The position numbers were made by a program, and so were the translations under genes. From Chloropicon primus (taxonomy: Eukaryota; Chlorophyta; Chloropicophyceae; Chloropicales; Chloropicaceae), in contig CP060757.1 in NCBI GenBank assembly GCA_023205875.1, positions 744,001-808,000 of the forward strand: DNA of 64,000 bases. Reading direction: 5' to 3'. Below, piece after piece: positions 37,588 to 55,757 of this stretch. Position 1 is the stretch's first letter. Every line of letters starts with the position of its first letter. Below the pieces are notes generated by a model. That model was given only the letters and a program-made list of their open reading frames with translations. It ran no database searches and was not told the DNA's origin.

Positions 37588-39462
37588 TCATCCTTCACCG
37601 CCTTCTCCGGCCTGCTCGGACTTTGAGACGCTCTGGAGCACCCTCTCCAAGTAGCTTGCTTCCGCTTCATCCTCGCTGTCCTCTAGGGAGGCGTCTTGGC
37701 CGTCCTCGGAAGGGAAAAGGGTCTCAAAATCTGGGTACAGCCTCGAGACGCATTTGCCGGAAGACTCCACGATGTTCTGGAAACCCAGAGAGGCATCGGG
37801 GCCGCCGAGTTGCACGATGCCTTCTCCCAACTCTGCGAGATCAGATCTGCCATCTCTCTGCGTGTAATAAAGACACAGCAGCGCTTTTGGGAGATCCTTG
37901 GATTCGGAAGCTAGCTCGGGCGCACCATCGAGGTCTTGGAGACTCGCAAGCTTGCACAAGGCTCCCTCGAGCACGTGTCGTGGACTGGTGCGTTCTGATG
38001 ATGGGTTCTGAGCTTGAGCCCTGCAGGAGAGATAGATAACCACCAAGCTCTCGCTCCCACAAGTGTTCAGAGCATTGCCTTCGATGCAGACCGCTCGAAT
38101 CGTGTGGGGGTTGCCCCCAACAGTGTGCGGGGAAAACACATGCAGTTGTATGTTGCCACCCTTCTTCGCGGGAGATTCTTTCTTCTTGGCCACGCAAGCA
38201 CATCGAAAGACTTTTCCTACCTCCTCATTCCGGTCACTCGACAGGCTGACCTCTGGGCCGAGCAAGATTTTCTTGCAACGCACTGGAACAGCACCCTTGA
38301 TATGAACTTCGTAGGTGTCGGGCTTCTCCTGCTCTCCTGCTCCTTCTTCTGGGCAGGACGCAGGTAAAGCTTCTGCCCTTGTTGGAGCATAGTTGAGCAC
38401 GTAGGTGGCTCCGTGCACAGCAGCTAACCTGCAAAAGGCTTGGCTCAGCTCTCCATTTCCGTAATTGCATGCTAGGAGAGCCCCCACCCCCGGCCCAAAA
38501 CGATTGATGGACTTGGCGTACTTGTAGAGCCTCTGTCTCCCCTCCTCGGCGCTCGGACCCTCTTCCTCGCCGCCTTCGCCGTCTAGATCTGCTATCCCGT
38601 ACATCACGATCGACCTCAGTTTCTTCGGCAGTTTGTGCACGTCTCTGAGGTACTCCACCATGCTCAGACCGGCAACCTCTGCCGAGGAGGGCCCCGGGCC
38701 TCCGTTGTCTCCCGCACCGAGAGAGTCTTGCTCGGACTTCAAGTACCGCATCAGCAGCCTTTTCTCGACCGGGCCCAAGTCCTTGCTCTTGAAGATATCA
38801 GACCGGCTCGCGGGCACGACGAACGACGAGGCCTCTTGGCCATCATGGTCGCCGGCACCCTCGTTAGCTACCCAAAGGGTGCTGCTTTGGACTGCTTTGA
38901 ACTCCAAGTATCTGTGCGCATCAGACGCTATCAGCGTGTCGATCATGTCGCCAGCGCCGAGGCATAGCTTTGGAGCACACGCGAGGTCGAACTGGATGGA
39001 CTCCACATCCTTGGCGAAGTCCTCCGCCAGAGATACCCCGGCCTCGTTGAGGCTTCCCGCTTCCGCGGAAACCAGGACGCTCACGTCGCCTATGTTTCTC
39101 GATCGGGGGTAAGCGAAGTTGACGATTCCGGGGTCAGCTTCCACCGTCCCTGTCGACCCTCCGTCGAGGCCAGTTCCATCTCGCGCCGTCGCGAGATCAC
39201 GCAAGACGTCCCCCAACCTGCGCGTTGCCCAACACTTCCCTCCGTAGCTATCATTGGGCTCCAGGTGCAGAACCCTAACACCCCTTCTCGCTAGCGCTGC
39301 TGCTGCTATGGACTCCGGCAGTCCAGTGCCCACAACTATGACGTCGCAGTGCTGCCACTCCTCGCACGCGTCCTCCTTTTTGTCCTCCCCGTCCTCCGCG
39401 CTGGGTTCGTGCAGCAGCCTCACTCTCGACGCCATCCTCTCCCCCTGTAACTGCCAATCCAT
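37588..39462 (-). CDS. REP: Rab escort protein (REP)
   Basis: 624 residues from ATG 39462; a second Met 27 bases downstream (39435) is an alternative. The GDI/REP fold is recognisable. It opens with HCDVIVVGTGLPESIAAAALARRGVRVLHLEPNDSYGGKCW, followed later by LCLGAGDMIDTLIASDAHRYLEFKAV, then ISKS-equivalent and YGNGELSQAFCRLAAVHGATYVLN. It carries long low-complexity insertions typical of REP rather than the compact GDI, and an acidic C-terminus. REP presents newly made Rab GTPases to geranylgeranyl transferase II. The start is only 49 bp from the divergent SIN1-like gene, so the two share a promoter. Confidence 0.85.
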   Translation of the reverse strand: MDWQLQGERMASRVRLLHEPSAEDGEDKKEDACEEWQHCDVIVVGTGLPESIAAAALARRGVRVLHLEPNDSYGGKCWATRRLGDVLRDLATARDGTGLDGGSTGTVEADPGIVNFAYPRSRNIGDVSVLVSAEAGSLNEAGVSLAEDFAKDVESIQFDLACAPKLCLGAGDMIDTLIASDAHRYLEFKAVQSSTLWVANEGAGDHDGQEASSFVVPASRSDIFKSKDLGPVEKRLLMRYLKSEQDSLGAGDNGGPGPSSAEVAGLSMVEYLRDVHKLPKKLRSIVMYGIADLDGEGGEEEGPSAEEGRQRLYKYAKSINRFGPGVGALLACNYGNGELSQAFCRLAAVHGATYVLNYAPTRAEALPASCPEEGAGEQEKPDTYEVHIKGAVPVRCKKILLGPEVSLSSDRNEEVGKVFRCACVAKKKESPAKKGGNIQLHVFSPHTVGGNPHTIRAVCIEGNALNTCGSESLVVIYLSCRAQAQNPSSERTSPRHVLEGALCKLASLQDLDGAPELASESKDLPKALLCLYYTQRDGRSDLAELGEGIVQLGGPDASLGFQNIVESSGKCVSRLYPDFETLFPSEDGQDASLEDSEDEAEASYLERVLQSVSKSEQAGEGGEG

Positions 39463-39511
39463 CCCAAGGAAAGGAAAAAGCAAAAGCACCTCCTCATCTC
39501 AGAGCGAGAGG

Positions 39512-41644
39512 ATGGAGGAGGGGTTCCTGCAAAGGCTGTTCCCCCGGGGAGAAGGGGATGGGCACTACAGGTAATCTAAGAGTCACGAGGGACTTGTTCT
39601 GTGAACACGAAGCGTGGGGAGTTCTCAGAACCAGTAACAACCATCGTGGACACCTAACCCTCGAGGGGGTAAATCAATAAACTGACAGGTGTGTGTTTGT
39701 GTTTGTTGCTCGATAGAACGGCGGCATACTCGAAGCTGTACAACGTTCTCTGTCCGCCTCAGCCCAATTTGCGTGAAATAGCCCAAGGTTTTGCCCTCTC
39801 AAAAGAGAAATCAAAAGGTAAGCGCGAGAGTGCAGAGGCGAGGCAATGGGATGTGTTCCTGACTCTTTCCACTTGTGGTGCACAGCGAACGTTTGGGAGA
39901 GCTTCCTGGATGCCCCAAGCGATCTGGCCGGAGGGTCTTCTGGAAAGGAAGGAAATTCGCTTGACAAAGCCTCGGAGGGAGACGACCAAGGCTCAAGCCA
40001 GCACGCGCCCGTTAGAACTGTGCGGGGCTTTGAGGCCACTTCCAGCAGCAACAGCGCTACGAGCAGTGGCGACCAACTCGAAAGGAAGAAGGAGACGGAC
40101 CAGTCCGAGCTGAGCATCGGTTTCTTTCGAAGGAAAAAGGTAGTGAAAATATCCTTGACCACTGCGTTGGATTGTGCTTTCCGATGACTGACAACGCGTT
40201 TTGGTTTCGACAACAGCTACGAGTCGTGCTGTTTGCAGCGAGACTCCATGCTGACAAGGCTGGAAATAAGAGGGATGTCATGGAATTCCAAGTGGATGCG
40301 GACAGAACTTTGACAGCGAGCATGCTCACCCAGGTCATACTGGGAAAGATTAGCGCCAAGGACTACAAGGTGGACTTCACGGGCTATGAAGTGAGATTTC
40401 CGGATCGGGATGACGATGGCCTCAAGCCAGAAGAGGCCACGGCTGACACGACTTTGCCTCCTCTTGGCTTTCAGCAGCCAGTTTCCCAACTCAATAGCAA
40501 CATGTTTGTGATCACGGAGAGGCCCGTGAACAACAAAGCTCTCGCAATGAAGACAAGGGTATCCATAAACAGCTTTGAGAGAGACCGAAGCAGGTTCCCG
40601 ACTCTGTCCCAGCTGTCTCCAGAGGAGCTGGACGAGTACTTCAAGAAAAACACCCCAAAAGATTCCAAGAACCCAATCACGTGCATTGTGAAGCTGGCGA
40701 TATCCCCGCTGTGCACCAAGAAGCTGGTCGGCAGCATCGGAAGAAGCCTTCAGAGCTTTGCTGATTGCATCCCACAGAGCGTCGTCCTTCGTGCGGACAG
40801 CGGCATGACTGTCGAGGACCTCACCAAATTCTTCCTCGGCTCCCTGTGCAAGGGCTACGAGGAGCACTGGAAGGACTGGATGATCAGAAAGACAAAGGTG
40901 TCTGTGTTTGACACAGTGGACGAAAGGTGAGTCTCTCGCGCGGCCCGCCCCCTCGGCAGCATTTCTCTCTGGCGACCATCAAATCCTGACCTTCTTTTTT
41001 CTAGGTGCTCCTTTTGGATGCACCAGGGGAACAACCCGCTTGGAGAGGTTCTAGACACGGACGCCAAAGTCACAGATGTGGCGGCCTGGCAAACGATCGT
41101 GCTCCTTCCCCGAACGAGCAAATACGCTCTCGAGAAGAAGGCCTCGGAATCGCAGCGCGGAAAATCTGAGCAGCCCAAAGTCACGTACCTGTTCACCGAG
41201 CAGACGGCGAGCATGTACGTCGAGTACAACGTGGTGAAGTTCAATCGGTACGGGAAGAAGCAGGAGCGCATACTCGGAATCGACAGGGAGCAGATTTACA
41301 ACTTGCTGCCGAGGCTCCAGCTGGACGAGGACAGCATGGACATGGAGCTGACCGCCAGCGATCTCATCGAAGCGAAGGGCGCGAGCGCTGACTTGTCTGC
41401 CAAGTCCCTTGCCGCGAAGGTCTCGAGGGGATTGCTGCAGAGCACCACAAGCGAGACGAAGAAGCGCGTCAGGCAGGTCAACCAAGTCAAGAGCTGCGAG
41501 GTGAGCGGGGACAACAAGGCCGTTGGGTGCCTCCGCTACAAGGACGGGTCGACCTACAATTTCGAGTTTGAGAACGAGGACCTGTGTGCCGAGGCCGTGG
41601 CGAGAATCAACTACTTGGTGAAGTTGTGCACCGAGAGCCTGTAA
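39512..41644 (+). CDS. SIN1: SIN1/AVO1 (MAPKAP1)-like TORC2 subunit
   Basis: join(39512..39570, 39717..39817, 39886..40139, 40217..40926, 41005..41644), 587 residues; all four introns are GT-AG and every phase closes. The N-terminal ~135 residues are linker-like. A CRIM-type domain starts near residue 139 with LRVVLFAARLHADKAGNK. It is followed by a segment in which an acidic stretch leads to DTTLPPLGFQQPVSQLNSNMFVI. This is close in pattern to the SIN1 '...DTDFPPLD...IHKFGF...LALVE' block. The last ~130 residues resemble the SIN1 PH domain (YVEYNVVKFNRYG; then FENEDLCAEAVARINYLVKL at the end). SIN1 recruits AGC-kinase substrates to TORC2. Identification rests on pattern and domain order, not on an alignment score. 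Confidence 0.72.
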
Positions 41645-41954: not shown

Positions 41955-42288
41955 GCCAATCGCGTTGGGAACGGGCCAAGTATTATTCCTCGTCGTTCGG
42001 TAAGCTGGTGCTGTCGAGAAGTGTCTCTCTCAACCACCCATCCATCCAGCTCTGCAGCTCCACGTCATCGTGCAGATCGAAAAATTCGATGTCAGCGAGA
42101 TGGAGCGAGAGGAGGAGGAAACGCCTGGGAGATATCGACCGTTTCGACTGGGGCAAAACGAGACCCCATTACATTACTCTTGGGTTGAGAGTCGTCGAGC
42201 CCCGGACGCTAGCATCATAAGGACTTTGAAACAACAACACGCCGTACCGTCTTCACCGTTGGACCAGCGTCGGATCGAGGATTACACG
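41955..42288. other. Divergent intergenic region, 334 bp
   Basis: Between the small membrane protein (minus) and the nsLTP-like protein (plus). The plus frame remains open from about 42070 and includes an in-frame ATG at 42100. The signal peptide, however, begins at 42289, so this is more likely 5' leader. No RNA gene is seen. Confidence 0.5.
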
Positions 42289-43437
42289 ATGACATCGCCA
42301 TCAGCAGGACGATCTACGATGTTGTGCGTTGCTGCCGCCCTTGTGGCCGTGCTCTCGAGCTCGGGGGCCCACGCGCAGATGAGCACGGCGGACGTGATGG
42401 AGAAGGCCCCGGTGTTCGGGGTGCCCGCCCTGACGCCCGAGGAATGCGGGGCCACGATCGAGAACTCCACGACCGACATGATCATCGCTTTCTCGTCGTG
42501 CCTAGCGACCGACTCCGCTTCCGAGGCCTGCTGCGGTGCCGTGCAGGACACGTTTGCCTTCGAGAACGAGAAGTTCGGGGGGTGCTTGTGCCACCCCGTC
42601 CTGATGAACACGGTGATGGAGCTGGCCGAGGGGTTCTTGCCGGGGTCCAAGGAGCTCATTCCCAGGGTTATGAACGACTGCGTCGATCCGGATGGGAACT
42701 ACTCTTCGTCCTTCCCGTTCTACGGGCAAGCCTCTGGGAGCGAGCAGTGCGATCCAAGCGTGCTCGTGAACACGGATGCCGTGGATCTCTCCGTGCTCGG
42801 AGAGCTCGCCCCCACCGTGGGCGCGCAGTCCAAGGACACCGAGGAGGAGGCGCCTGCCGCGGGCGGGTCAGACGCCCCTGACCAGGCGGACAGGAGAATG
42901 GACACGGCCCTCACCGTCTTCAGCGTCGTTGCCGCGGAGGACTGCGGCGCGAACTTGCAGAGCGGGAAGGGGGAGCTGATCGGAGCTCTGACGCCTTGCA
43001 TCATCGCCGAGGCGCCGACGCAAGAGTGCTGCAACGCGGTTGAGCAGGTGTTCAGACCGGACAACGAGAGGTTTGGAGGCTGCTTGTGCCACAAGGAGGT
43101 TATGGACGGCATCTTTGACGAGGCCGAGGGCTTCCTTCCTGGATCCACCGCCTTGATCGAGAACGCCTTCGAGGTCTGCACGAACGATTTTGGATCTCAG
43201 TTTTCCTTCCACGGCCAAAAGGTTGGGCACGTGGCGTGCTCCAGCGAGGACAAGCTCCAGGCTCCGAGCCTGAACCAGGCGGGCTCGAGCGGATCAGAGC
43301 AGGAGGAGGAGGGCCCAACCCTCCTGGGTGACTTGCAAAACATGTTTGGGTCGAGCTCTTCGGCGGCGAGCCCCGGCGCCGTCGCGTCCTACGCTCTCGT
43401 TGCCGCCTCGACCCTCGCGTACGCTTTCCTCCTCTAG
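42289..43437 (+). CDS. Secreted, probably GPI-anchored protein with two eight-cysteine (nsLTP-like) domains
   Basis: 382 residues. Signal peptide (about 1-29, LCVAAALVAVLSSSGAHA), then two tandem domains (about 52-155 and 218-325). Each has eight cysteines in the order C-C-CC-CLC-C-C. Domain 1 has EECGAT, SSCLAT, EACCGAV, GGCLCH, MNDC and SEQC. Domain 2 has EDCGAN, TPCII, QECCNAV, GGCLCH, FEVC and HVAC. This is the plant non-specific lipid transfer protein (8CM) signature. The C-terminus is Ser/Gly-rich and ends in a hydrophobic segment (YALVAASTLAYAFLL), as in GPI-anchored LTPGs. Likely role: surface lipid binding or transport (inference). TGTAA follows near 43463. Confidence 0.72.
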   Translation: MTSPSAGRSTMLCVAAALVAVLSSSGAHAQMSTADVMEKAPVFGVPALTPEECGATIENSTTDMIIAFSSCLATDSASEACCGAVQDTFAFENEKFGGCLCHPVLMNTVMELAEGFLPGSKELIPRVMNDCVDPDGNYSSSFPFYGQASGSEQCDPSVLVNTDAVDLSVLGELAPTVGAQSKDTEEEAPAAGGSDAPDQADRRMDTALTVFSVVAAEDCGANLQSGKGELIGALTPCIIAEAPTQECCNAVEQVFRPDNERFGGCLCHKEVMDGIFDEAEGFLPGSTALIENAFEVCTNDFGSQFSFHGQKVGHVACSSEDKLQAPSLNQAGSSGSEQEEEGPTLLGDLQNMFGSSSSAASPGAVASYALVAASTLAYAFLL

Positions 43438-52365: not shown

Positions 52366-55300
52366 TTATACATTCTGCTTCTCCCAATTATAACGAGGAG
52401 AGAAGTTTCTATGCCTCGAGCTCTTCGTGTAAAGGATGCCTCCAACACAAAGGAGGAGCAACACGAATCCAAAGACTTGGACTTGGACCAGACTGCCGTT
52501 TTTCGTATCTCTCGCTCCGACCCCAGTGATGGGTGTGTGTGCCGAGGTGTTGGGGGTTCCGTCGCCACGTGGGGTCACGGGATCCTCGCTGCTGGGTGAC
52601 AGCCCCAGACGACTAGAAATGGACGGACCACTTTGTGTGAGCCGCTTCTTGGCCCAGTCAATCCATTTCATCATGAGGTTGCTCCTCTCTCTGACCATGG
52701 CTGACCTGTCAGGCTGGTGACTCAAGGGGGCATTGCGGAAGCACTGCAGTGGCTTCGAAAGCAGCTTCATGCTCTCGCTATCAAGGTTCTCATGCTCATC
52801 CGGGATCGCGAACTCGTACATACCAATGTTCCCTCTGAAATACGCTGGACGATCGCCCGCGAAATTGTCAAAGTCAAAGTTGTATTCTCCCTCGTGGAAC
52901 GATCCCTCTTCGATCCAGGTGGGGGTCTCCCCCTCTGACGCATACTTGACAAAATCAGTGAAAACACCCTTCATCTTTTTGATTCCCGTTTTGGCGTGGC
53001 TGATGTCCTTGTCAAAACTGCTGGAATCGCTGAAAATCACAAGGTTTCCCTCTCCCACCTTGGTCATACCCAAAACAGGAGCCTTGTCGGCCTTCTTGTT
53101 GTGTGGTTCTATCTCGAAGATGACGCTGTTTGGAGGCATTCTCCCTATCATGGCACCGTCATAAACCCCAAGTTGCTTGTCAGGGCCCAGCCGCAAATGA
53201 CCGTTCGCTGTAGCGTTAGAAAAAGCAACTTCGAAATTGGAGAGGAGCCTGTTCAATGCAGGGACATTGCACCCGCCCATCGCAGGGTGCATGGTCGCCC
53301 GATAATTGTCATTCCACAAGGTGTACTTGTCAATCATGTGACGGTCGTACCAATCGGCGAGAACGAGAAGTCCCATGCCCTCTTTGGTCACGTCAGTGTA
53401 CAGTTTGTCGATTTCTTCTTGGTCGAACTCCATTTCTGGATCTATGACTACAAGAAGGCCGTACTGAGATGCGTCAAAGCAAGTCATCGACGAGCTGAGA
53501 ACCTCCACAAAGTAACCATTTGCAACCAGTTCGTTGAAAACGTTGAAATAGTTTGTGTGTGGGTGGTCCCCTTGGAAGTCGTACGTATGCGTCTCATGGG
53601 CCGCGTCCTTTGGGATGTAAGCATATGGATACTGAAGGCTGTGGTAGTCATCCCACAGAACGCGCTTGCTCCTTGGTGGAGTTGGCTCAACACGCAACTT
53701 AATGTCGATTCTAACCTCCTGCTCCCGCTTTGTCCCCCTCTTCTCGCCTGGGAACGGGGGAGACGACACATTGAATGTAATGCTGCCTTCCGCAATACCA
53801 GAGCTGTGGGCAGCTGCATCCTCGACATGCATGTAGACCCCAAGGTACCCGGACCAAGGCCAAAGGACGTTGCTGTAGTCAAACTGAAACCTGACTTGGT
53901 TCCCAAGCTTGTTCCTCGGGTTCCATCGTGGCGGATCAGTGAAATAGCCCGTGACGCCCATCCCGTTCATGATCGTGAAATTGAGCATGAGCGGCATGGA
54001 TTTGGCGTACACCGGCTGGGCGGAGTGAGGCCAGAAGAAGCCCGAGTCCTCCTTGGACGTGAGGTCGATGTAAGATGGGAAGACGGTCACTCGTGGCTCG
54101 TAGGCCTTGGCCACTTCGACTGATTTCAACATATTCAGAGCGCCAGGCCCTTGGTCGTACATTGAGAAATGGTCGAGACGGTCTGCACCCTCTATCAGCA
54201 TCTGCTTCAGGGACATAGGTGTCACCTTCCTGTACCTCTCCTCCTCAGGAATCGCGGAGGCGCAAAGCGCCGCTGCACTTAGAGCCACAGGGGATGCCGT
54301 GCTCGTTCCCATGATCTTCGAGCAACCCTCTTGATTGTTCAGTGCCATCACCATATCTGCGTAGGCCAAGATACCTGGCGTCACGCGTCCATACCCGTAG
54401 GGCTTCTCCTGCAGGGACATCCCCCTCGACTGATAGTCGCTGATCATGAAATTGAAGTTGTGAGAACCCACACCAATGATGTAGATTTCATCGGCAGGCG
54501 AGTTCGTCGTCCCCCTGAGGGGCCCCATGTTTCCCATAGCCGCAAACACTGCCACGCCATTCGCCACAAGCTCCCGAAACTTCTCCACAAACGGGTGGTC
54601 CAAAAAATCTGGCCCACCAATGGACACGTTGACCATGTGGACTTTCATCAGCAGCGCAAAGTTTATGGCGTCGAGGTACCACGAGCTAAAGGACTCGGTA
54701 ATGTCGGTGAACACTTTGAATGTGTAAATATCCACGTCCGGCGCGGCGCTGGAGCACTCTGGGTGGATCGAAGCAATAGACCCCGCTGAGGCTGTTCCGT
54801 GGCCATTTCCGTCCGTCCTGACCGGTTGAAACGTCCAGTTACTCCGCCACTTGATGTTTCGGATGTATCGCGTCTTCTCTGCTGGGTTCAGACCCGTGTC
54901 GAACACTCCGACCCTGATTCCTTTGCCCGTGTACCCTTGGTTCCATATGAGCTCTGGCTGGTACTGGGAGTTCGTTTGGTGCTCCACGCGCTCCCTCCCA
55001 GGGTCGAAGTACAGCCTTTCCTTGTACGCAGTGCTGTACGGGGCATCCATGCTGTCCAAGTCATCTTGGACGGCGTCCTTATAAGTCGAATCCACGGCAC
55101 TGGGGCCGGGCCTCGCTTGCAGGTCCCTGACACTCGAGTCCGGGAACACCCCCTTCACGCCCCTTAGACCCCTTATGGCCTCAACCAGGCCATCCTTCTT
55201 CCCGTCGCTCGGCACGGTGATGACCCCAAAGTCCGTGGTGTACTTCGAAGCCTCATTCTGGCGGTCTCTCCAGGCCCACGCCTTGTCCACGGGAAGGTGC

Positions 55301-55599
55301 TTCTCCAGACTCAGCTTGTGCTCGTCCGCGAACTTGTACTCGTCAAAGGTCACCACAAAGCTCTCGTCGGTGGCATTTCCCCTCGCGTCCGATGCGCTCG
55401 TCGTCTCCGCGGTGAAGTCGTAGACTTTGCTCTCCTCCTCCTCGATTTTAACGCACTCGTACTGCCCGTGCTCCTCCGCCAGTTGAAACAAAAGTCCCTT
55501 CTCGTCACACGTCGTCGCATCTTTCAGGCCTTGCGCACAGTTCCACCACGATATCGACACCAGCAAAGCCAAGAACACCACTCCCTTCGCCATCTTCAT
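52366..55599 (-). CDS. S1P: Site-1 protease (subtilisin/kexin isozyme 1, SKI-1)
   Basis: 1077 residues, single exon, from ATG 55599 with signal peptide (about 1-24). The subtilase triad is Asp234 (GVFDTGLNP), His267 (NGHGTASAG) and Ser433 (GTSTASPVA). A pro-domain precedes it. A long C-terminal region is characteristic of S1P (about 480-1000). One transmembrane helix lies near the end (about 1048-1065, FGFVLLLLCVGGIL), followed by a short basic tail. S1P is the Golgi protease that cleaves luminal domains of SREBP/ATF6 or plant bZIP17/28 factors before site-2 cleavage. No site-2 protease is in the window. Confidence 0.93.
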   Translation of the reverse strand: MKMAKGVVFLALLVSISWWNCAQGLKDATTCDEKGLLFQLAEEHGQYECVKIEEEESKVYDFTAETTSASDARGNATDESFVVTFDEYKFADEHKLSLEKHLPVDKAWAWRDRQNEASKYTTDFGVITVPSDGKKDGLVEAIRGLRGVKGVFPDSSVRDLQARPGPSAVDSTYKDAVQDDLDSMDAPYSTAYKERLYFDPGRERVEHQTNSQYQPELIWNQGYTGKGIRVGVFDTGLNPAEKTRYIRNIKWRSNWTFQPVRTDGNGHGTASAGSIASIHPECSSAAPDVDIYTFKVFTDITESFSSWYLDAINFALLMKVHMVNVSIGGPDFLDHPFVEKFRELVANGVAVFAAMGNMGPLRGTTNSPADEIYIIGVGSHNFNFMISDYQSRGMSLQEKPYGYGRVTPGILAYADMVMALNNQEGCSKIMGTSTASPVALSAAALCASAIPEEERYRKVTPMSLKQMLIEGADRLDHFSMYDQGPGALNMLKSVEVAKAYEPRVTVFPSYIDLTSKEDSGFFWPHSAQPVYAKSMPLMLNFTIMNGMGVTGYFTDPPRWNPRNKLGNQVRFQFDYSNVLWPWSGYLGVYMHVEDAAAHSSGIAEGSITFNVSSPPFPGEKRGTKREQEVRIDIKLRVEPTPPRSKRVLWDDYHSLQYPYAYIPKDAAHETHTYDFQGDHPHTNYFNVFNELVANGYFVEVLSSSMTCFDASQYGLLVVIDPEMEFDQEEIDKLYTDVTKEGMGLLVLADWYDRHMIDKYTLWNDNYRATMHPAMGGCNVPALNRLLSNFEVAFSNATANGHLRLGPDKQLGVYDGAMIGRMPPNSVIFEIEPHNKKADKAPVLGMTKVGEGNLVIFSDSSSFDKDISHAKTGIKKMKGVFTDFVKYASEGETPTWIEEGSFHEGEYNFDFDNFAGDRPAYFRGNIGMYEFAIPDEHENLDSESMKLLSKPLQCFRNAPLSHQPDRSAMVRERSNLMMKWIDWAKKRLTQSGPSISSRLGLSPSSEDPVTPRGDGTPNTSAHTPITGVGARDTKNGSLVQVQVFGFVLLLLCVGGILYTKSSRHRNFSPRYNWEKQNV

Positions 55600-55757
55600 C
55601 TCCCAAGTCCCTACCTTTCCTTCACCCTCCCCTCCCCCAAGCCCCTTCCCTCACCACGAAACCCTCTCTCCTCCACCTCCACTGCCGTTCCGACGCCACC
55701 GTCTTCGTCTTCGTCTGGGGCACGAGGGCGGAAGTCGAGGGGGGACAGAGGAGAGGG

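Follow-up and report, generated by a model that had tools for sequence, protein, structure and literature searches.

The window analysed here is a 64,000-nucleotide stretch of the Chloropicon primus genome, positions 744001-808000 of contig C4 in an assembly of 20 contigs and 17.58 Mb. A five-exon gene, assigned below to the SIN1 family, lies on its plus strand. The gene and the features of its product are as follows, with coordinates counted from the first base of the window and residues from the start of the predicted protein.

39512..41644, plus strand: putative SIN1 gene, five exons, 587 aa; product identical to the deposited protein HOP50_04g31620, SIN1_PH over its cut-off
39512-39570, 39717-39817, 39886-40139, 40217-40926 and 41005-41644, plus strand: the exons, forming a single open frame of 587 aa
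40134..40537, plus strand: CRIM-like region, residues 137-245, split by intron 3 (40140-40216); placed by motif alignment with human SIN1, the Pfam CRIM profile not being reached
40400..40444, plus strand: acidic loop PDRDDDGLKPEEATA, residues 200-214, at the position of the substrate-recruiting acidic loop of fission yeast Sin1
40445..40513, plus strand: DTTLPPLGFQQPVSQLNSNMFVI, residues 215-237, a gap-free match to human SIN1
40670..41116, plus strand: region between CRIM and PH, residues 290-412, holding intron 4 (40927-41004); defined by position only
41213..41302, plus strand: first stretch of SIN1_PH, residues 445-474, Pfam profile positions 2-32
41303..41446, plus strand: 48-residue insertion within the PH domain; profile positions 33-41 are missing between the two SIN1_PH matches
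41447..41623, plus strand: second stretch of SIN1_PH, residues 523-581, Pfam profile positions 42-104

We confirm that this SIN1-like gene is real, as first observed. The five exons proposed in the preliminary description join into one frame, the four introns (146, 68, 77 and 78 bases) are all of the GT...AG type, and the product matches HOP50_04g31620 of C. primus residue for residue. The host is therefore a green alga, as had been proposed, the genus being chlorophyte. The deposited entry is labelled 'hypothetical protein', and its UniRef name starts 'Sin1 middle CRIM domain-contain...'. According to the statistics quoted from the genome description, C. primus genes carry a mean of 0.50 predicted introns with a mean size of 152 bp (PMC6731263), so that a gene with four introns is intron-rich for this species.

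Other genes were noted in the window. Adjoining the SIN1 gene head to head, on the minus strand (37591-39498), lies a gene whose product belongs to the GDI family (86.7 bits) and looks by eye like a Rab escort protein. The next gene downstream (42004-43434, plus strand) encodes two similar cysteine-rich repeats (FGGCLCH), and Pfam gave no match for its product at E up to 1e-5. A Site-1 protease (MBTPS1-type subtilase), with a fourth domain scoring 223.6 bits, is encoded at 52369-55650 on the minus strand.

SIN1_PH was the sole Pfam family to exceed its own cut-off in the C. primus protein, and no other family outscored it, which upholds the family assignment made at the outset. It scored 32.6 bits in the spliced protein and 36.6 bits in exon 5 alone, against a cut-off of 27. 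A six-frame search of the genome placed the profile at the SIN1 locus with 37.8 bits over two stretches; the one other match listed (16.6 bits) fell below the cut-off. In the relatives P0002, P0003 and P0005 the same family reached 38.3-41.8 bits, and of the eight aligned members all but one matched it at E up to 10. Pairwise alignment of the PH domain with human SIN1 gave a mixed picture: shuffles scored as well in 0/2000 cases for P0002, 5/2000 for P0003 and 1287/2000 for P0005, and the C. primus domain itself (P0001) did not rise above shuffles (204/2000 as good). With a profile of the PH segment, 75 of 946 scored shuffles did as well against full-length human SIN1 and 3 of 969 against the human domain alone; in this and the other segment-profile tests 1000 shuffles were made, and those that HMMER left unreported are excluded from the denominators. 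We conclude from the Pfam scores that the match of the PH domain exceeds chance.

The acidic stretch, the DTTLPPLGF motif, the ...FVI motif and the C-terminal PH-like domain all lie where the preliminary description had located them. Human SIN1 aligns without gaps to DTTLPPLGFQQPVSQLNSNMFVITER, which carries the DTTLPPLG...FVI motif, and when the human domain was shuffled 2000 times for pairwise comparison, one shuffle did as well for the C. primus protein (20 of 2000 for P0002). The acidic loop just before it has seven acidic and two basic residues in 18; the loops of P0002, P0004, P0005 and P0006 have 9 to 13 acidic residues, and that of P0003 has 3 in 16. The corresponding loop of fission yeast Sin1 is described, in the text cited, as essential for binding Gad8, the TORC2 substrate kinase (PMC5340527). 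The CRIM-like block proposed earlier thus holds as a motif in register with human SIN1 but not as a Pfam domain: while SIN1_PH passed in the same Pfam search, the CRIM model had no match in the C. primus protein or its aligned relatives. A CRIM profile search of the whole genome also returned nothing, as it did in the control genomes. The CRIM segment profile was equalled by 72 of 585 scored shuffles against full-length human SIN1 and by 4 of 789 against the human domain alone. Comparing whole proteins with human SIN1 by itself gave weak matches; hhalign, too, gave a weak result with its top match out of register, the second match in one run being the CRIM motif. What these alignments point to is a CRIM motif, an acidic loop followed by the PPL motif, rather than a fold.

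SIN1 proteins carry a Ras-binding-like domain between CRIM and PH. The equivalent segment in C. primus resembled human SIN1 no more than shuffles did (311/641 as good against the full-length protein, 605/946 against the domain alone). An AlphaFold model of the C. primus protein had a mean pLDDT of 38, too poor to show the ubiquitin-like fold of CRIM. The first Foldseek match of this low-confidence model among PDB chains was the PH domain of AVO1 (3ulc; E 0.15, rmsd 2.0 over 53 columns), a hint rather than proof since no match reached E 0.001. Against PDB sequences, phmmer with the protein gave no match at E up to 10, a four-sequence SIN1 profile returned AVO1 only (E 0.23), and an eight-sequence profile returned no match.

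Relatives of the SIN1 protein in environmental data share 31-60% identity with it; those at the lower end (31%) may come from other algal groups. Intron 4 of C. primus falls within the codon of R375. The environmental relatives P0005, P0006, P0007 and P0008 seem either to continue through or to begin within an intron whose end is the arginine before [FY]WMH, the site of C. primus intron 4. This apparent intron sequence, recognised from protein letters alone, suggests a shared intron and therefore descent of these SIN1 relatives within one clade.

The preliminary description had made its reading depend on a RICTOR gene in the same genome, and such a gene was found on contig C10.

C10:275705-279421, minus strand: putative RICTOR gene, one 1238-aa frame with no intron in frame; RICTOR_M over its cut-off, RICTOR_V behind it

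Searching the genome with RICTOR_M gave a single place (C10:276923-277177, minus strand) at 31.2 bits, against a cut-off of 27; protein scans gave 28.9 and 27.8 bits, so that the margins over the range 27.8-31.2 are small. Behind RICTOR_M, within one open frame of 1281 aa, RICTOR_V scored 23.1 bits; its range over the C. primus searches was 21.3-23.1 bits, below its cut-off of 27. RICTOR_N was absent from the profile search of the C. primus genome, and the control genomes gave no match either; P0012, a relative that ends early, has a partial RICTOR_N before RICTOR_M (profile positions 191-371, 18.1 bits, cut-off 28.5). Both RICTOR_M and RICTOR_V exceeded their cut-offs in the relative P0010 (RICTOR_V 31.6 bits), and at E up to 1 the four aligned RICTOR-like proteins all matched RICTOR_M and three matched RICTOR_V. 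The database match from C. primus, A3770_10p58490, is identical at all but 6 of 1238 residues; UniRef gives it a name starting 'Rapamycin-insensitive companion'. Three environmental relatives are 54-69% identical over the aligned part, one of them covering only 38%. Near the gene on C10 are what we take to be a glucan water dikinase, a starch enzyme recognised by eye (locus L005, 1759-6498, plus strand), and, presumably, an importin-alpha (locus L006, 4521-6203, plus strand).

Comparisons with human RICTOR gave differing results. A profile of the C-terminal half scored 12.7 bits against human RICTOR 545-1044, a value that none of 654 scored shuffles reached (best 8.6; 1000 made); the importin-alpha of C. 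primus, an armadillo protein, scored 7.9 bits with the same profile, a modest gap. Using hhalign, the RICTOR-like proteins were co-linear with human RICTOR over 397 columns (E 0.0017). In pairwise alignments of the C-terminus, shuffles did as well in 73/2000 cases for P0009, 10/2000 for P0010 and 1837/2000 for P0011. Searched against PDB sequences, the RICTOR profile found 34 chains, which were armadillo and importin proteins, with RICTOR absent. A structure model of P0011 was of low confidence (mean pLDDT 46). Human RICTOR (6zwm_E) ranked fifth by E-value among its Foldseek matches (9.3e-6), with the longest alignment (1025 columns) among the best 50 matches listed; given TM scores of 0.30/0.27 and an rmsd of 30.8, this match supports a helical repeat and little beyond. 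VIA-align of the RICTOR model did not place RICTOR among the best 50 matches listed, which were mostly armadillo proteins; RICTOR may rank further down. The dominance of armadillo proteins in the PDB searches is what a helical repeat would give.

The other core TOR-complex proteins are encoded in the same genome: TOR on C10 (FRB domain, 144 bits), RAPTOR on C3 (238 bits) and LST8 on C2 (46% identity, 300 bits). With SIN1 and RICTOR, all five core proteins counted by a 2025 survey are therefore found in C. primus. Five AGC kinases with a C-terminal extension were found. One, on C9 (C9:519747-521960; locus L023, 48-2261, minus strand), carries a PH domain ahead of the kinase domain and among PDB entries matches full-length AKT2 and AKT1 best; a PX domain read by eye in this kinase was not listed by Pfam and was dropped. 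In AGC kinases the hydrophobic-motif position of the tail usually holds a residue that can be phosphorylated. The tail of the C9 kinase is ISSFNF, which has none there. In another, on C1 (locus L009, 118-1650, plus strand), a Myosin_TH1 domain (70.1 bits) precedes the kinase domain, and the tail, FDGFTF, offers a possible phosphorylation site; among PDB entries S6K1 matches it best, followed by SGK1 and AKT. It is a candidate substrate of TORC2 or TORC1. The cited part of a study of the Ostreococcus kinome reports the TORC2 targets PKB and PKC as absent across the green lineage (PMC4143559), and for this reason the C9 kinase, whose kinship with AKT is suggested by its architecture, would be a fitting companion of TORC2. 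As a separate observation, the N-terminal half of the SIN1 PH domain (VVKFNRYGKKQERILGIDREQIYNL, 41213-41302) resembles part of the TH1 domain of the C1 kinase (VVKKINRKGSTQKRILMITTRAIYNL); the PH and TH1 domains may be related.

Set beside human SIN1 (MAPKAP1), budding yeast AVO1 and fission yeast Sin1, the C. primus protein shares the order of acidic loop, DTxxPPL motif and C-terminal SIN1_PH; the DTxxPPL motif is in register with that of human SIN1, and as in human the gene co-occurs with a RICTOR gene. It differs in a CRIM too divergent for Pfam, an unrecognisable RBD, the 48-residue insertion in the PH domain, and a green alga as host. The C. primus RICTOR shares with RICTOR/AVO3/TSC11/Ste20, the TORC2 scaffold, a RICTOR_M over its cut-off with a sub-threshold RICTOR_V match in order behind it, and the family is co-linear with human RICTOR over 545-1044; it is shorter than the human protein (1238 against 1708 aa), and RICTOR_N is below detection in C. 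primus and partial in P0012. C. primus shares TOR, RAPTOR and LST8 with the green-lineage TORC1, for which, in the literature cited, these three are the only components reported from other green algae and plants.

The SIN1 and RICTOR genes lie on chromosome-scale contigs, match curated profiles and co-occur with TOR, RAPTOR and LST8. We consider it very probable that the gene at 39512-41644 is the C. primus orthologue of SIN1 (AVO1/MAPKAP1), paired with the C10 RICTOR as the TORC2-specific subunits, and the SIN1/AVO1-like interpretation given earlier is supported. The best reading is a conventional but divergent TORC2 in an unexpected lineage; the novelty is the lineage, the type of system being already known. 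From yeast and human TORC2 we infer that these proteins form one complex and which proteins it phosphorylates. SIN1 and RICTOR would be the two subunits that set TORC2 apart, grouped with the TOR kinase and LST8, and the N-terminus of SIN1 would touch both RICTOR and LST8. Kinases of the AGC family would be recruited by the acidic CRIM loop, the PH domain would keep the complex at the membrane, and TOR would phosphorylate the tail of the recruited kinase.

TORC2 had been reported as completely absent from more than 450 archaeplastid genomes in the 2025 survey (PMC12467227). As described in the parts cited, that survey used PANTHER models, disregarded hits below 100 bits, and removed those chlorophyte and streptophyte hits that were unexpected, such hits often being contaminants or misannotations; the word Chloropicon does not occur in its main text. 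An earlier comparison of five clades names Plantae, in the section cited, as the sole one without TORC2 (PMC5745459). A search of titles and abstract openings, with most subscription journals and preprints outside its coverage, found no report of TORC2 in Chloropicon or of RICTOR in prasinophytes. The automatic UniRef names point to SIN1 and RICTOR, and a database user could therefore already have seen both genes.

An alternative is that neither protein is what it seems: the C-terminal domain of the C4 protein might be of the TH1 type (myosin tail) or otherwise PH-like, its CRIM motif a chance match, and the RICTOR-like protein an unrelated armadillo protein. The likeness of the PH segment to the TH1 domain of the C1 kinase is in keeping with this, as are a weak Myosin_TH1 match in P0003 (15.6 bits, cut-off 31.1) and the mostly armadillo proteins returned by searches with the RICTOR profile and model. 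However, it is SIN1_PH that exceeds its cut-off, Myosin_TH1 does not figure among the matches of the C. primus protein at E up to 10, and the TH1 matches of the genome sit elsewhere; we have for this reason set aside a TH1-type tail as the main reading. RICTOR_M, likewise, occurs at one place in the genome with RICTOR_V behind it, and importin-alpha scores below human RICTOR, if by a modest gap. We regard this explanation as improbable. The chance that the two genes are assembly contaminants is negligible, although the survey text cited found unexpected chlorophyte hits to be often just that (PMC12467227). The assembly, at 20 contigs and 17.58 Mb, resembles the 20 chromosomes and 17.5 Mb given in the cited account of C. 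primus RCC138 (PMC12301720), the second strain to be published and probably the one that bears the HOP50 tag; the SIN1 match is tagged HOP50 and the RICTOR match A3770, which we read as two strains; and GC3 is native for both genes. Contamination was accordingly rejected as the main reading.

If SIN1 and RICTOR are genuine C. primus genes, chloropicophytes might have gained them by horizontal transfer rather than inherited them from the archaeplastid ancestor. In published surveys the other Archaeplastida lack TORC2, and on that sampling one gain explains the pattern as simply as several losses would. Transfer would nevertheless need the joint gain of SIN1 on C4 and RICTOR on C10, which are unlinked and of which SIN1 has four introns and RICTOR none in frame. 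Their GC3 values (0.72 for SIN1, 0.77 for RICTOR) are native, next to 0.74 for a piece of TOR and 0.75 for a piece of RAPTOR, and both proteins have diverged environmental relatives (31-60% identity for SIN1, 54-69% for RICTOR). There is also no relative in viral contigs, where 24 and 144 stretches matched patterns for the two proteins and none was confirmed by tblastn. These data fit both origins, but we hold transfer to be possible but doubtful, and retention from the ancestor seems the likelier of the two. With some reserve we favour the view that chloropicophytes kept an ancestral TORC2 with an AKT-like effector, the PH-domain AGC kinase at C9:519747-521960, and that TORC2 was lost several times within Archaeplastida rather than once in their ancestor.

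The presence of SIN1 and RICTOR in a green alga contradicts a complete absence of TORC2, and the timing and cause of its loss become testable. A 100-bit threshold and the removal of unexpected hits could conceal divergent orthologues. C. primus offers a photosynthetic green cell in which the functions of TORC1 and TORC2 can be compared and, if retention is correct, TORC2 would still have been present when green algae arose.
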